The notes under the pieces are model-generated. The model was not told where the DNA came from and did no database searches. It saw only the letters and a list, made by a program, of their open reading frames with translations. 64,000 bases of DNA from Halorubrum aquaticum. GTDB lineage: Archaea; Halobacteriota; Halobacteria; Halobacteriales; Haloferacaceae. The stretch is taken from assembly GCF_900113615.1 (NCBI RefSeq), contig NZ_FOPZ01000003.1:186001-250000 (forward strand), given 5' to 3'. Below are positions 8,080 through 44,379 of this stretch, in pieces. Position 1 is the stretch's first letter; the number at the start of each line of letters is the position of its first letter. The translations under genes and the position numbers were made by a program.

Positions 8080-9096
8080 ATGACCCGATACGAACCGGTC
8101 GAGTCGCCCGATTCGACCACGACGTTCCCCTACCACGACCTCACGCCGCCCGAACCGGTCGACGTGTACGAGGCCCGCGAGGTCGTTCGACGGTACCTCC
8201 CGCGAACGCCGCTGGTGAAAAGCGAGATGCTCTCCGCGGAGACCGGCGCGAACGTCTACCTCAAACGCGAGGACACCCTTCCGACCGGGGCGTTCAAGGT
8301 GCGTGGCGGCGTCACGCTCGGCCACCGACTCTCCGAGGAGTTCCGCGAGGCCGGGCTCATCGCCGCGTCGACGGGGAACCACGGCCAGTCCGTCGCCTAC
8401 GCCGGCAGGGAGTTCGACGTTCCGGTGACCGTCGCCGTCCCCGCGGACCCGAACCCGGAGAAGGTGGCCGCGATGGAGCGGTTCGGTGCCGAGGTGGTCG
8501 CGATCGGGGCCGATTACGACGAGGCGCGGGAGTGGGCCGAGGGCCGGGCGGCGTCGGAGGGGCTCCGCTACGTCCACTCGGCGAACGAGCCCGACCTCGT
8601 CGCCGGCGTCGCCACGGCCGGATTGGAGGTGCTCGAGACGCTGCCTGCCGTCGACCGGGTCGTGTGTCCGGTCGGCGGCGGGAGCGGCGCAGCGGGCTAC
8701 TGTCTCACGGTTGGTGCGATCGGCGGCGCCGACATCGTCGGCGTCCAGTCGGTGGCTGCCGATGCGACGTACCGGGCGTACCACGAGGGCCACCTCGATC
8801 CAGTGGACTCGGCGATGACCGAGGCTGAGGGGATCTCCTCGCGCGCCCCATTCGCGCTCACCGTTGAGGTCCTCCGCGACCGGCTGGACGACATGATCAC
8901 CGTCCCGGAGGAGTCGATCTGGGAGGGCGTCGCGGACCTGTTGACGGACGAACGGATCGTCGCCGAGGGTGCCTCCGCGGCAGCGATCGCCGCGGTGCGA
9001 TCGATGGACGACGTCGCCGGCGAGAACGTCGTCGTCCCGATCACCGGCCGAAACCTCTCGACTGAGAAGCTCCGGAACGCGCTCTCCCCGGCGTGA
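8080..9096 (+). CDS. Threonine/serine dehydratase-like PLP enzyme
   Basis: A 338-aa fold-type II PLP enzyme of the IlvA/serine-racemase/EutB group, without the C-terminal regulatory ACT domain of biosynthetic IlvA. The PLP lysine is about K73 in LPTGAFKVRGG. STGNHGQSVAYAG binds substrate carboxylate and PLP, and PVGGGSGAAGY is the phosphate-binding glycine loop. It would deaminate L-Thr or L-Ser (or a hydroxy-aspartate-type substrate) to a 2-oxo acid and ammonia. It begins 10 bp after the M20 amidohydrolase, so the two are almost certainly cotranscribed. The absence of a regulatory domain fits a catabolic role. Exact substrate not assignable. Confidence 0.85.
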   Translation: MTRYEPVESPDSTTTFPYHDLTPPEPVDVYEAREVVRRYLPRTPLVKSEMLSAETGANVYLKREDTLPTGAFKVRGGVTLGHRLSEEFREAGLIAASTGNHGQSVAYAGREFDVPVTVAVPADPNPEKVAAMERFGAEVVAIGADYDEAREWAEGRAASEGLRYVHSANEPDLVAGVATAGLEVLETLPAVDRVVCPVGGGSGAAGYCLTVGAIGGADIVGVQSVAADATYRAYHEGHLDPVDSAMTEAEGISSRAPFALTVEVLRDRLDDMITVPEESIWEGVADLLTDERIVAEGASAAAIAAVRSMDDVAGENVVVPITGRNLSTEKLRNALSPA

Positions 9097-9187
9097 GGTG
9101 GACCGGGCCGATCGATCCGAGAACGATCGGTCCGACCCGAGGATGGACGGGGGCGGGTTTTTCTAGGACGGAACGGGACCACACCCC

Positions 9188-10783
9188 ATGACGGATCTGC
9201 TCATCGAGAACGCTCGGATCGTCGACGGGACGGGCGCGCCGTGGTTCCGTGGTTCGGTGGCCGTCGAGAACGGCCGGATCGAGTCGATACACCGCGAGTC
9301 GTCCCCAGACGCCGATCCGGAAGCGATCGTCGACGCCGAGGGAAAGGTGGCGTGTCCGGGGTTCATCGACACGCACTCGCATTCGGATCTGGAGCTGTTC
9401 GAGGACCCGACGCTCGCACCCAAGATCAGACAGGGGATCACCACCGAGGTCCTCGGTCAGGACGGGTTCTCGATGGCGCCGATGTACCGCGACGGCGGTG
9501 CCGACCAGTGGGCGAAACAGCTCGGCGCGCTCGCCGGCCGGGCCGACGTCGAGTGGACCTGGGGAAGCGTCGCCGACTACCTCGACGCCGTCGAGGAAAA
9601 CGGCGTCGCGCCCAACGTGGCGCTCCTCGTGGGACACGGGGCCGTTCGGTTCGACGTGCTCGGAATGGCCGACCGCGCCCCCACCGACGACGAACTCGAG
9701 GAGATGGGCGAGCTGGTCACCGAGGCGTTGGAGGACGGGGCGGTCGGCCTCTCGACGGGGCTGATCTACACGCCGTGTACCTACGCGGACACACACGAGA
9801 TACGGGAGCTGGCCGCCCGTCTCGGGCCGTACGGGCGGCCGTTCGTCGCACACGTCCGAAGCGAGGGGCGGTGGATCTGGGAGGCGCTCGACGAGTTCGT
9901 CGATATCGGCGCCGACGAGAACGTCCCGCTCCACCTCTCACACTTCAAGGTCGCCGGCCCGATGCAACACGGGAAGGTCGACCGGGCGACGGCGCTCGTC
10001 GAGGCTGCCCGCGAGCGGGGCGTTGACCTCACGGCCGAGCAGTACCCCTACACGGCCGGCAGCACGATGCTCTCGGCCGTTCTCCCGCCGTGGGTTCACG
10101 CGGAGGGGCCGGACGGAACGCTCGAACTCCTGGCCGACGAGACGGCCAGAGAACGGATCCGCCGCGACGTCGAGGAGTGGCGCATCGACGGCTGGGAGAA
10201 CATCGGCAAGCTCACCGGGTGGGAGAACGTCGTCATCGCGAACGTCGAGACGGCGGCGAACGAGCACGTCGAGGGGATGGACGTGGCCGCGATCGCCGCG
10301 GAGCGCGACGTCGAGCCGGTCGACGCGGTCTGCGACCTCCTCGTCGAGGAGGACCTCGCCGTCAGCATGACGATCCACATGCTCGAGGAGTCGGACGTGC
10401 AGGACATCCTCTCGTACGAGCGGGTCTGTGTCGGGTCCGACGGGCTGTTCGGCGGCAAACCGCATCCCCGCGTCTACGGCACGTACCCGCGGATCCTGGG
10501 ACACTACGTCCGCGAGGAGAACCTCCTGACCGTCGAGGAGGCGGTGCGAAAGATGACGTCGCTGCCGGCGCGCGCTATGGGGCTCGACCGGAAGGGCGTC
10601 CTCCGGCCGGGAATGGACGCCGACCTGGTGGTGTTCGACCCGGTCACCGTGGAGAGCCGGGCGACCTTCGAGGCCCCGAGACGGCATCCGAGGGGGATCG
10701 ACCACGTGCTCGTGAACGGCGAGTTCGTGGTTCGCGACGCCGAGACCACCGGCAACCTGGCCGGTCGAGCCGTCCGAAAGTAG
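9188..10783 (+). CDS. N-acyl-D-amino-acid deacylase (D-aminoacylase family)
   Basis: A 531-aa amidohydrolase, closest relative in the window of the truncated gene at 3-338 and a more distant paralogue of 5116-6735. It shows [11 protein letters not shown] (HxH ligands, about 63-65), [12 protein letters not shown] (Asp at about 92 instead of the Cys ligand of classical D-aminoacylase), [27 protein letters not shown] with the catalytic Asp, and the terminal beta strands. Expected reaction: N-acyl-D-amino acid to D-amino acid plus carboxylate. Last gene of the 6825-10783 cluster, 91 bp after the dehydratase, and followed by srp54, which belongs to the core genome. Confidence 0.9.
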
Positions 10784-36237: not shown

Positions 36238-37248
36238 TCACTCCCGGGCGTCGTACCGGGACACCGCGCGGTCCGCGCGCGTCGAGACGCCGTTCGGGTT
36301 GCGCGCGGGGCTTCGGTCGCGTGCCCGAGCGACGAGTCCGTCCGAACCCCCGGAGAGGATCCCGGTCAGCACGTCGCGGCCGTTCGAGACCCACCCCGAG
36401 GGCGTGGCCTCGCCGCGGACCACGTCGCGGGCGACGTCCACCGCGTCCGTGACCGCGTGCTTGCCCGTCCGGGCGAGCGCGGTCGGGCGGACCCCGTAGT
36501 TCTTGACGAGCCGGTACGCGAGCGCCCGGTACTTCCAGCCCCAGTCGCGGGCGGTCCGTCCGCCGTCGGCCGCGGTCGGGTTCGGCGGCTCCTCACGAAC
36601 CGCCATCCCGGGACGCCAGGCGACCTCGCGGTCCATCCGCGCGAGCCGGTGGGCGGCGTCCCGCGCGCCGCCGACCCGAAGGTACTCGTCGAACCCGTCG
36701 AGGTCACGGAGCGTCTCCCGGCGGAACGCGACGTTCCCGCCCGCGAAGTACGTCACCGACCGACCCGCGATCCGGCGGCGCTCCGGACCGTCCGGGCTTT
36801 CGGCCCCTCCGTCACCGCTTCCGTCCCCTCCGTCACCGCTTCCGTCCCCTCCGTCACCGCTTCCGTCCCCTCCGTCACCGCTTCCGTCCTCGTCGGTTTC
36901 GGACTCGGTCGATCGGACCGGTCCGGTCACCACGTCGGCGTCGGCGAGCCCCTCACGGACGCCCTCGAGCCACGACTCGTCGATCCGGTTGTCGTAATCG
37001 ACCAACGCGACCGCGTCGCCGCTCGCGACCTCGATGCCGGCGTTGCGGGCGACGTTGACGGTCCGGTCGGAGATCTCGACGAGCACGTCGACGTCGTCGC
37101 GGTCGCGAACCATTCCGGTGGTGCCGTCAGCGGACGGGCCGTTGACGACGACCACCTCCGTGTCGGGCGCATGCGCCGCCAGCGCGTCGAGGCAGGCGGC
37201 TAACCGGTCCCGACCGTTGAGCGTCGGGACGACGACCGACAGGTCCAT
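36238..37248 (-). CDS. GT2-family glycosyltransferase
   Basis: A 336-aa protein from ATG 37248 (MDLSVVVPTLNGRDRL); a start four codons upstream is also possible. GT-A fold motifs: VVVPTLNGRDRLAACLDAL, NVARNAGIEVASGDAVALVD and VDYDNRIDESWLEGV (DxD-like), then FAGGNVAFRRETLRDLDGF and REEPPNPTAADG. It is probably membrane-associated through its C-terminal basic helix. Likely transfers a sugar to a lipid-linked or surface glycan. About residues 124-148 form a perfect hexapeptide repeat (GDGSGD-type), encoded by an 18-bp tandem repeat at 36805-36890. Confidence 0.88.
   Translation of the reverse strand: MDLSVVVPTLNGRDRLAACLDALAAHAPDTEVVVVNGPSADGTTGMVRDRDDVDVLVEISDRTVNVARNAGIEVASGDAVALVDYDNRIDESWLEGVREGLADADVVTGPVRSTESETDEDGSGDGGDGSGDGGDGSGDGGDGSGDGGAESPDGPERRRIAGRSVTYFAGGNVAFRRETLRDLDGFDEYLRVGGARDAAHRLARMDREVAWRPGMAVREEPPNPTAADGGRTARDWGWKYRALAYRLVKNYGVRPTALARTGKHAVTDAVDVARDVVRGEATPSGWVSNGRDVLTGILSGGSDGLVARARDRSPARNPNGVSTRADRAVSRYDARE
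36805..36890. repeat. 18-bp tandem repeat inside the glycosyltransferase gene
   Basis: Four near-perfect copies of an 18-bp unit (CCGTCACCGCTTCCGTCC plus variants), encoding Gly-Asp-Gly-Ser-Gly-Asp-type hexapeptides in frame. The repeat number can change by slippage without shifting the frame, so length may vary between strains. Confidence 0.85.
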
Positions 37249-41125: not shown

Positions 41126-41566
41126 GTGAGAGAGTACGAGCGGAAGGGACTCTTAGAGCGCGTCGAGCGCGAGGCGGCCACTGTCGGCGCGCGGATCCCG
41201 GAGGAGATCGAGGTCCAGGGGGAGCCGATCGACCTTCAGTCGTTCGTCTTCGAGATCAAGCGGCGGGAGACGGTCCCGCCGGGCGAGCGGGACCGCGTCG
41301 AGCGGGCGAAACGGAACCTCCGCCGCGAGCGGCTCGAGCGGCTCGAGCGCATCGAGGAGAACGAGGTGAGCTACGAGCGCGGCGAGGAGCTCGCGGCGTC
41401 GATCATCGGGATCGACCGCGCGCTGGAGGCGCTGGAGGGGCTGAACGCGCCGGACCCGGAGACCGAGGCGGAACGGCAGGCTGCCGCCGACCGGAAACGG
41501 TGGATGAACTTCCTGAAGAAGGCGCTCGGCCGCGATGACGCCGGGGGCGGCCGCACGCGGTTTTAG
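41126..41566 (+). CDS. DUF5788-like haloarchaeal protein
   Basis: A 146-aa, mostly helical and highly charged protein from GTG 41126 (VREYERKGLLERVEREA). The first third contains GARIPEEIEVQGEPIDLQSF, the rest is a long charged helix (RRERLERLERIEENEVSYE) and a C-terminal amphipathic segment RKRWMNFLKKALG. Similar proteins are found only in haloarchaea and have no known function. Its stop codon overlaps that of the convergent Rieske gene (TTAG shared at 41563-41566), so transcription of one runs into the other. Confidence 0.75.
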   Translation: MREYERKGLLERVEREAATVGARIPEEIEVQGEPIDLQSFVFEIKRRETVPPGERDRVERAKRNLRRERLERLERIEENEVSYERGEELAASIIGIDRALEALEGLNAPDPETEAERQAAADRKRWMNFLKKALGRDDAGGGRTRF

Positions 41567-42033
41567 TTTCCGGTGAAGTCGATCCGCGAGTCGCCGGCGT
41601 CGTCGTCGCGACGGCTCGGCCCGCGCCGGACGAACTCGTACGCGTCGTCCGCGAGGTACACCGCGCCGTCGTCGACCGCCACGTCGACGCCCTCGAGGAC
41701 CGCGCCCTCACAGGGTCCGAAGTTACAGTAGCCGGAGCCGCCCTCGAAGGTCGCGCCGTGTTTCTGACAGAACACCTCGCCGTTCCGGACGAACGCGCCC
41801 TCGTCCTTGTCGAGGCGCACGTCCGTCCAGTGTTGACAGTAGTTGCGGAACGCGGAGATGTCGCCGTCGAGCCGGAGCAGGATCGCCTCGGCCTCGACGC
41901 CCCCGTCGTCGTCCGCGCCCACGTCGCCGTCGCTCTCGGAGACCGAGTCCGGATCGACCGGGCGGAGCGTCACGAGAAGCGTGCTGTCCTCCGGCACCTC
42001 GTCGAGGGCGGCGATCCGCCGGTCCGCGTCCAT
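41563..42033 (-). CDS. Rieske [2Fe-2S] domain protein
   Basis: A 156-aa protein carrying both Rieske cluster motifs: NYCQHWTDV (Cys-x-His) and EVFCQKHGATF (Cys-x-x-His), about 20 residues apart. GYCNFGPCEGAVLEGVDV follows. No transmembrane helix or Tat signal, so it is a soluble ferredoxin-like electron carrier, not a bc1-complex subunit. Between the motifs and the N-terminus there is an acidic insert (about 30-48). Partner oxygenase or reductase not present next door. Convergent with the DUF5788-like gene, with overlapping stops. Confidence 0.92.
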   Translation of the reverse strand: MDADRRIAALDEVPEDSTLLVTLRPVDPDSVSESDGDVGADDDGGVEAEAILLRLDGDISAFRNYCQHWTDVRLDKDEGAFVRNGEVFCQKHGATFEGGSGYCNFGPCEGAVLEGVDVAVDDGAVYLADDAYEFVRRGPSRRDDDAGDSRIDFTGN

Positions 42034-42135: not shown

Positions 42136-43734
42136 TCAGATCCCCAGCCACTCGTCGTTTCGGATCGCGTACCCGTTCTCCCGGCAGACCTTCGCCGCCT
42201 GCCGTCGAACGTCTCGAGAGCCCGGAACACGCTCCTTCTCGGCCACCCGATCGACGATCCAGTCGGCGACGGCGTCGATCGCCTCGTCGTCGTCGTCACC
42301 GTCGACGTCCGCGAGCGCCCGGAACGTCCGCTCGTAGGCCTCTCGCTGTGACCGGCTCGTCTCGGCGTTCGGGAGTCGCGCGACCGCCTCCACGACCCGC
42401 TTCATCGCCGTGGCCACGGTCGGTCGCTGAATGCGGTTCCTGACCGCGGCGGGCGAGTCGAACGACTCCGCCGGCGCGTCCGGGATGAGGTCCGCGATCG
42501 TGTACGTTTCGACGACGGACTCGATCTCGCGGTCGCCGACCGCGGAGACGACCTCGGCCCCCGTCGCCGGGAACTCCACGGATTCGAGCTCCGTCTCGAA
42601 GTAGGCGAGCGTCGAGGCGTCGACCGGCGGTTCGGTCTCGTCGCCCCGCTCGAGTTCCGCGGCGATCTCGCGCTCGCGCTGGCGTCGCTCCTCGTCGTGG
42701 GCCTGTTTGTCTCGGCCGCTCTTGTCGTCTGCCATCCCCGATCTACGGGTCCGAGCCGGATAGTCCTGTGGGCGAGATGACGGGTCCGTTCGGGTCTGCG
42801 GCGTGTCGCCGTCGTAACACGCCGCCTCCACGCGTCGGTCGAACAGCCGCGAGAGCAGCGTCGTGAGCGGGCCGGAGACGCCCTCTCCCTCGCCGTCGAC
42901 GGCGATCCCGTCGACCGTCCGAACCGGGCGGATCCCCCACGTCGCGTTCGCGAGGAAGACCTCGTCGGCCTCGCGCACCTCGCTCGGGGCGTAGTTCCCC
43001 TCCTCGACCGGGATCCCCTCCTCCTCGGCGACGTCGATCACCTCGGTGCGAACCACGCGCGGGACGACCGGACCGTCGAGCGAGGGCGTCTCGAGCCCCT
43101 CGCCGTCGGTGAAAAAGAGGGTCGAGTCCGCCCCGCCGACGACGTCGCCGTCGGCGTCGGAAAGCAGCGCCTCGTCCGCGCCCGTCACCCGGAGTTCGAG
43201 CCGCGCGAGGACCTCGTTCACCCGGGCGTGAGTCGTCGCGTCGGCCGGGACCGCCCGTTCCGGCGTCTTCCGGGTCTTGACCGTCTGGAGCGTCGCCGGC
43301 TCGTCGAAGACCGGATCCGACCCGACCCCACCCCTCGGAAGCGGACGGACCGCCACGACGACCGTCGGGTCGCTCTCGACTCGCGGATCGAACCGGTCTG
43401 CGGTCCCGTCGCGGTCGGACCCGTTCGCCGGGCGACCGCGGGTGACGGAGACCTCACAGACCGCGTCCGACAGGCCGTTCGCTTCGAGCGTCTCGTCGAT
43501 CCGGTCCCGCAACTCCGCGTCCGAGAGACCGTGGTCGATCGAGAGCGCCTCACAGCTCCGGGCCAGTCGGTCGGCGTGTCGGTCCCAGCGGAACACGGTT
43601 CCGCCGTACGCTCGTGCGGTCTCGCGGGCAGCGTCGCCGTAGCGGAACCCGCGGTCCTCGACGTGGACCGTCGCCGACCCCGCGGGCACGACCTCGCCGT
43701 CGACGTGGTATCGCCGGTCCGGATCGCCGCTCAT
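42136..43734 (-). CDS. Degenerate aminodeoxychorismate lyase (PabC-like) fused in frame to a DUF5789-like domain
   Basis: A single 532-aa open frame. Residues 1-300 align with haloarchaeal PabC (YHVDGEVVPAGSATVHVEDR, then ADEALLSDADGDVV, LLSRLF). The position where PabC has the PLP lysine (about S-A-K-T-H-N-Y-L-N-G) reads D-A-T-T-H-A-R-V-N-E, giving Thr at residue 167 (codon ACG at 43234-43236). Other conserved spots are changed too: GATSN to GGADST and PGVTR to PRVVR. The frame then runs, without a stop, through intergenic-like sequence (about 302-333) into a DUF5789-like domain beginning MADDKSGRD at residue 334 (internal ATG at 42735), which ends AKVCRENGYAIRNDEWLGI. The two parts are probably separate genes in relatives. 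The second part may still be made from its own start. Confidence 0.8.
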   Translation of the reverse strand: MSGDPDRRYHVDGEVVPAGSATVHVEDRGFRYGDAARETARAYGGTVFRWDRHADRLARSCEALSIDHGLSDAELRDRIDETLEANGLSDAVCEVSVTRGRPANGSDRDGTADRFDPRVESDPTVVVAVRPLPRGGVGSDPVFDEPATLQTVKTRKTPERAVPADATTHARVNEVLARLELRVTGADEALLSDADGDVVGGADSTLFFTDGEGLETPSLDGPVVPRVVRTEVIDVAEEEGIPVEEGNYAPSEVREADEVFLANATWGIRPVRTVDGIAVDGEGEGVSGPLTTLLSRLFDRRVEAACYDGDTPQTRTDPSSRPQDYPARTRRSGMADDKSGRDKQAHDEERRQREREIAAELERGDETEPPVDASTLAYFETELESVEFPATGAEVVSAVGDREIESVVETYTIADLIPDAPAESFDSPAAVRNRIQRPTVATAMKRVVEAVARLPNAETSRSQREAYERTFRALADVDGDDDDEAIDAVADWIVDRVAEKERVPGSRDVRRQAAKVCRENGYAIRNDEWLGI

Positions 43735-43770
43735 TCGCGTCGTCGGATCGGACCGCGGACGGGAGCCACC

Positions 43771-44379
43771 TCAGAACTCCTTGGCGCGGTCGATCCACTT
43801 GGCGGCGCGCTTCTCGCCGATGCTCGCGCCCTCGGCCACGTCGGCGGGATCGGCCGCCGCGAGGTCCTCGACGGTGTCGATCCCGATCTTCCCGAGCCGC
43901 TCGCCGTACGCCGGGCCGATCCCCTTGATCCGGTCGACGGGATCGCCGTCGACCTCGTCCGCCGATTCGTCCTCGACGGTTTCGGCGGCATCGTCCTCGG
44001 CGGCATCGCCGTCCTCGAGCGTCTCCTCGTCGGATCCCGCCGCGTCGGTGTCGGCGTCGGCGTCGGATCCCGCCGCGTCGGTCTCGTCCTCGCGGGCGAC
44101 CGCGTCCTCGATCTCCTCTTCGTCCTCGGTGGCTTCCTCCCCGTCCGCGACGGCGGCCGCGGTCTTCGTGTCGTCGGCTTCGCTCCCGTCGGCCGGTTCG
44201 TCCCTATCGGTCGCTTCGTCCTCCTCGACCGGTTCGTCCCCGTCGATCGCTTCGCTCTCCTCGACCGGCTCGCTTCCGTCGGCGTCCCGCTCGACGGTCA
44301 CCGTCGTCTCCCCGCTCTCGCCGTCTGACGAGTCGCTCCCGAACCCGAGCTTCTCCTTGATCTTCTTCAGCAGGGCCAT
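43771..44379 (-). CDS. Helix-hairpin-helix protein with long acidic linker
   Basis: A 202-aa protein from ATG 44379 (MALLKKIKEKLGFGSDSS). The N-terminal amphipathic segment is followed by ~115 acidic low-complexity residues with repeated units such as DAAGSDADAD and EPVEEDEA. The C-terminal ~55 residues are a double HhH-like domain: DRIKGIGPAYGERLGKIGIDTVEDLA and AADPADVAEGASIGEKRAAKWIDRA, matching the helix-hairpin-helix modules that bind DNA or act in nucleotide-excision-type proteins. Function of the whole is unknown. Lies directly downstream of the pabC-like fusion on the same strand reading away, 36 bp from its start. Confidence 0.82.
   Translation of the reverse strand: MALLKKIKEKLGFGSDSSDGESGETTVTVERDADGSEPVEESEAIDGDEPVEEDEATDRDEPADGSEADDTKTAAAVADGEEATEDEEEIEDAVAREDETDAAGSDADADTDAAGSDEETLEDGDAAEDDAAETVEDESADEVDGDPVDRIKGIGPAYGERLGKIGIDTVEDLAAADPADVAEGASIGEKRAAKWIDRAKEF

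Follow-up and report, generated by a model that had tools for sequence, protein, structure and literature searches.

Locus and gene content

The window, i.e. the whole stretch of DNA analysed (64,000 nucleotides), was taken from Halorubrum aquaticum (assembly GCF_900113615.1, contig NZ_FOPZ01000003.1, positions 186,001-250,000). A single reading frame in it joins a domain derived from PabC to a DUF5789 domain. PabC of the HVO_0708 type is the predicted aminodeoxychorismate lyase of haloarchaea, where its function is only a prediction (PMC8305020). The features of the locus are the following.

41563..42033, minus strand: gene for a Rieske-domain protein, downstream flank
42136..43734, minus strand: whole fused open reading frame (ORF), 532 aa, ATG to TGA, a single open frame
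42136..42735, minus strand: DUF5789 gene with its own ATG (Pfam PF19102), in frame with the derived pabC in this genome only
42736..42807, minus strand: linker, about residues 310-333, apparently the former spacer between pabC and DUF5789; predicted to be disordered, weak codon-position GC signal
42736..42771, minus strand: conserved, putative promoter-like element ccacaggactatccggctcg..., immediately 5' of the DUF5789 ATG, within the fused ORF
42808..43734, minus strand: PabC-derived domain, residues 1-309 (Pfam Aminotran_4; AlphaFold2 and Foldseek)
43057..43059, minus strand: Arg226; Gly in functional proteins (PabC G199, phosphate cup)
43135..43137, minus strand: Gly200; in functional proteins Glu, pairing with PLP N1 (IlvE E193)
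43222..43224, minus strand: Arg171; Tyr in functional haloarchaeal PabC (IlvE Y164)
43234..43236, minus strand: Thr167, codon ACG, at the position of the Schiff-base lysine (E. coli IlvE K159, E. coli PabC K140)
43735..43770, minus strand: scar left by deletion of pabB-pabA, 36 bp between the helix-hairpin-helix (HHH) gene and the derived pabC (synteny with intact operons)
43771..44379, minus strand: gene for an HHH protein, flanking the ancestral pabB-pabA-pabC operon on its upstream side

A preliminary description had reported a stop-free frame of 532 codons without naming a strand. This holds for the minus strand, read from the ATG (43734-42136); the plus strand of 42136-43734 contains stops. 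The PabC-like and DUF5789-like domains that it recognized within one ORF both score above the curated Pfam cut-offs: Aminotran_4 (PF01063) covers residues 38-273 (E 5e-44; 151.2 bits, cut-off 28.5) and DUF5789 (PF19102) residues 382-444 (E 5.9e-6; 26.6 bits, cut-off 21.7). An AlphaFold2 model was built with 19 sequences. Its pLDDT is mostly 80-97 over the PabC-derived domain and 75-89 over about residues 441-510 of DUF5789; the linker (310-339) and the initial portion of DUF5789 (363-436) both stay under 50. Foldseek placed the model with class IV aminotransferases of archaea (TMt about 0.9; 0.88-0.90 to PDB 5mqz), and the PabC-derived domain is predicted to fold as a class IV aminotransferase (fold type IV). 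Elsewhere in the window (36600-36850), a tandem repeat of GDGSGDG units lies within a glycosyltransferase-like ORF, the length of which varies among relatives.

Relatives and loss of pabB and pabA

PabC-like proteins were searched for in 52 genomes of the genus Halorubrum. A closely similar protein (79-95% identity) occurs in seven species, namely that of the window, G060 (Halorubrum cibi DSM 19504), G014, G019, G011, G026 (Halorubrum sp. 48-1-W) and G062. The position of the Schiff-base lysine is occupied by Thr in six species of this clade and by Ala in G019, by Arg in the sister species G068, and by Lys in the remaining aligned members of the genus. A single path Lys-Arg-Thr and two separate losses require an equal number of base changes. 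A sequencing error at the lysine was ruled out, as six other species carry Thr or Ala there. The preliminary description had suggested looking for a second, normal pabC; none was found elsewhere in the genome of the window, in which the sole other Aminotran_4 gene looks like ilvE (about 31% identity between the proteins).

In other species the gene order is aroE, CopD-like, HHH protein, pabB, pabA, pabC, (DUF5789), Rieske. The PabC-derived protein is the syntenic orthologue of haloarchaeal PabC, with the same flanking genes and about 63-71% identity to intact members of the genus. In all eight species (the seven and G068), an in-place deletion has removed pabB and pabA, so that the HHH gene directly adjoins pabC. 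A tree of eight neighbour genes yields the well-supported grouping (G009,(G068,seven species)); one deletion therefore explains the pattern. Neither pabB nor pabA, the products of which would have to supply the PabC substrate in the same genome, was found elsewhere in these genomes, less surely so in G068, which is only 82% complete. Each genome is left with two Chorismate_bind proteins, which are taken to be TrpE and a MenF-like protein (MenF), and what matches PabA best is in each case a TrpG-like protein next to TrpE (52-54% identity). A FolC-FolP fusion protein and DHFR were retained after the loss of pabB and pabA, and PABA should therefore still be needed. No literature on PABA auxotrophy in Halorubrum was found, and for haloarchaea pabABC are themselves assigned by prediction only (PMC8305020).

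G011 carries TrpE twice, in identical-scoring TrpE-TrpG pairs at G011:C21:2559-4066 and G011:C22:17412-18919, which may reflect a duplication in the assembly or a genuine one of recent date. In G012 (L107, G012:C15:98000-117000, about 8500-9802) pabB is missing and pabA is truncated (residues 91-213 only), while pabC has the lysine and a normal active site; this is a distinct, incomplete decay of the pab operon. In G013, IlvE is the sole PabC match and a third Chorismate_bind protein is lacking, while Pterin_bind (FolP) is retained; all of pabABC appears to have been lost there.

Active site

E. coli IlvE and PabC served as references for the active-site positions. The lysine motif, A-K-T-H-N-Y-L-N-G in haloarchaea, reads A-T-T-H-A-R-V-N-E in the window. 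Absence of the PLP lysine, as first proposed from the single sequence, was confirmed by the codon ACG (Thr167) at the Schiff-base position and by Thr or Ala throughout the seven-species clade, in place of the lysine by which a fold type IV PLP-dependent enzyme is recognized. The alteration of several more active-site residues was likewise borne out, since alignment with relatives showed that further PLP contacts are lost. All seven species share the replacement of Lys140 by Thr or Ala, Lys80 by Glu or Ala, Tyr (IlvE Y164) by Arg, Glu173 by Gly, Gly199 by Arg, Phe26 by Arg or Ala, and Ser (IlvE T257) by Ala. The protein thus differs from haloarchaeal PabC in lacking the PLP lysine, the Tyr, the Glu and the phosphate-cup Gly, as well as in the deletion of pabB and pabA; neither the phosphate-cup glycine nor the Glu to the pyridine N1 is present in any of the seven (Gly to Arg, Glu to Gly).

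Fold type IV is shared with bacterial PabC (P. aeruginosa, E. coli; EC 4.1.3.38; PMC3174152), relative to which Phe27, Lys80, Lys140, Glu173, Gly199 and a conserved Tyr are replaced and the equivalents of Thr29, His43, Arg46 and Arg202 retained. Seven residues are reported to be strictly conserved across four PabC structures (PMC3174152); three of these (Phe27, Lys140, Gly199) differ in every one of the seven species, and the other four are the retained equivalents just named. Among the catalytic residues (PaPabC numbering), Lys80 and Lys140 are replaced and the Thr29 equivalent is kept. Any side chain at Gly199 of PabC is stated to collide with the phosphate of PLP (PMC3174152). From the changes of Tyr to Arg, Glu to Gly and Gly to Arg (phosphate cup) it follows that PLP should not fit, and the PabC-derived protein would be unable to hold PLP as a Schiff base or to make PABA. 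Weak non-covalent binding of PLP is conceivable, with the equivalents of Arg46, His43 and Thr29 still in place. The NCBIfam PabC equivalog scores are 119 bits against a cut-off of 308 and 109 against 176.85, a shortfall that normal haloarchaeal PabC may share. G068 has a partial set of changes (Lys to Arg, Phe to Val, Thr to Val at the cup, Asn to Thr), and its active site represents an intermediate state.

A protein of this fold without the lysine is already known. The aminotransferase-like protein of Variovorax paradoxus (PDB 7z79; 28% identical), one of the Foldseek matches, is a natural class IV fold in which Asn174 aligns with Thr167 and in which, by sequence alignment, Arg stands at the Tyr position as in the PabC-derived protein; unlike the latter it retains the Gly-Ile-Thr-Arg phosphate cup. 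PDB 9j32 is the N174K mutant of the same protein. We know of no link of 7z79 to a deleted pab operon. The closest solved structures in both sequence and fold are archaeal branched-chain aminotransferases (PDB 5mqz, 5e25, 5cm0; 31% identity, TMt about 0.9), which, unlike the PabC-derived protein, are active PLP enzymes with the lysine.

Selection on the PabC-derived protein

Under a branch codon model (298 codons, 18 taxa), omega was 0.053 for normal PabC, 0.107 for the seven-species clade, 0.063 for G068 and 0.135 for the stem, the last two values being rough owing to synonymous saturation on these branches. Omega = 1 was rejected for the clade (2dlnL 417), G068 (41) and the stem (30.5). The clade value is about twice that of normal PabC (2dlnL 26), i.e. 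constraint is relaxed in part. An independent IQ-TREE estimate for the clade, 0.120, lies within the range of the neighbour genes (0.015-0.223). A composition artefact in omega was ruled out by six neutral simulations, in which omega came to 0.74-0.91 and almost all lineages acquired stops. About 31 nonsense changes were expected and none was seen; the ORF is intact in all seven species, and the clade keeps the coding GC pattern as well as 79 of the 104 invariant columns of PabC. Positions that switched are as invariant within the clade (18 of 28) as other positions (177 of 276), and the new residues are therefore themselves constrained. The stem branch of the protein has 0.57 changes per column, versus 0.024 in neighbour genes, and the change therefore came in a burst.

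With catalytic residues lost and an ORF maintained by purifying selection, the protein has the sequence features expected of a pseudoenzyme. One alternative is that selection acts on a moonlighting role which other Halorubrum PabC proteins already have, loss of the PABA pathway having let the active site drift. In G068, where pabB and pabA are gone and Arg replaces the lysine, omega is close to that of normal PabC, as if selection had never stopped; the radical changes fixed across the pocket in seven species, however, suggest a new use of the pocket and not drift alone. A moonlighting role is thus possible, though we would not expect it.

Fusion with DUF5789

DUF5789 (PF19102) is haloarchaeal and normally encoded by a separate gene; no literature on it was found. 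In H. cibi (95% identical) the derived pabC ends in TGA and DUF5789 lies in another frame. G011 and G026 likewise have their own pabC stops, with DUF5789 in the other frame, and in G014 (L037) and G019 (L036) DUF5789 is absent between pabC and the Rieske gene, although the remaining clade members have it. The same fusion was found in none of the relatives; long open frames in some other genomes extend upstream, not into DUF5789. In G068 (L115, about 9800-10150) a GC-rich, inverted-repeat-like stretch lies between pabC and the Rieske gene, where several species have DUF5789.

Compared with H. cibi, the window differs at the junction over about 20 bases, with a net change of -1 and removal of the stop. 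This agrees with the loss of a stop postulated earlier; a difference of this extent makes a sequencing error at the missing stop unlikely. One linked event for the lysine loss and the fusion, as the preliminary description implied, is not supported, the lysine-less protein being unfused in six other species and DUF5789 being absent from the locus in two of these. The lysine loss is old and the fusion young, two separate events.

GC content at the three codon positions is 0.77/0.51/0.90 in the derived pabC and 0.74/0.46/0.89 in DUF5789; the linker, at 0.62/0.72/0.69, departs from both and resembles DNA that was once intergenic. Four unfused members of the clade share the block preceding the DUF5789 ATG, with its spacing unchanged. 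DUF5789 likely retains a promoter of its own, from which it could still be produced separately. A scan of the linker for bacterial-type promoters gave nothing, as expected for an archaeal host.

The fused 532-aa product could be a novel protein of two domains that serves its own function in the species of the window, the frame being open across the junction and both domains intact. Its restriction to one genome, the intergenic character of the linker with its conserved promoter-like element, and the lack of DUF5789 at the locus in two clade members make this rather unlikely.

Interpretation

The PabC-derived protein is probably a pseudoenzyme that arose from an aminodeoxychorismate lyase after the loss of pabB and pabA and that acts free of cofactor, the fusion being later and private to the genome of the window. 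In the ancestor of the eight Halorubrum species, pabB and pabA were excised from the pabB-pabA-pabC operon, leaving pabC. The lysine was replaced, by Arg in the sister species and by Thr or Ala in the seven-species clade, where the rest of the PLP site was rebuilt and purifying selection followed. The protein may use its remodelled, Arg-containing cavity or its dimer surface; its role would most likely be binding or structural. As a later, private step, the small junction change removed the stop and brought the DUF5789 gene into frame. The non-PLP function that the preliminary description had considered remains the best reading, given the missing PLP contacts and the purifying selection, with loss of PLP and of activity judged from the residues.

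A new cofactor-independent catalytic or ligand-sensing protein, rebuilt from PabC after its partner genes disappeared in a lineage that requires PABA without synthesizing it, and possibly tied to PABA or folate salvage, has a smaller chance of being correct. Somewhat less probable still is a non-catalytic, prozyme-like partner of IlvE in a heterodimer. Members of the fold family form dimers that share active sites, the genome retains no related fold apart from IlvE, and catalytically dead paralogues that activate enzymes have a precedent in deoxyhypusine synthase of trypanosomatids (PMC3663545); the low identity to IlvE, the lack of co-localisation and the absence of anything special in IlvE argue against it. 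That the gene is a decaying pseudogene, useless since its partners pabB and pabA were lost and merely not yet disrupted, would accord with the long stem branch, with the fusion as a possible sign of decay and with the complete loss of pabC in G013, but is highly improbable in view of the low clade omega, the strong rejection of neutrality, the stop-ridden neutral simulations, and the intact frames and retained coding GC pattern in the seven species.

Significance

Read as a pseudoenzyme, the PabC-derived protein offers a well-resolved natural record of the passage from enzyme to pseudoenzyme, from the intact operon (G009) through the change of Lys to Arg with deleted partners (G068) to the seven species, in which the cofactor site would be fully lost while selection continues. 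Proteins of this type call for caution with automatic annotation as aminotransferases. Because folP and DHFR are kept, the species of the clade are predicted to need external PABA or to have an unrecognized route to it. What a PLP fold does without PLP is a question that can be tested in culturable organisms such as Halorubrum cibi.
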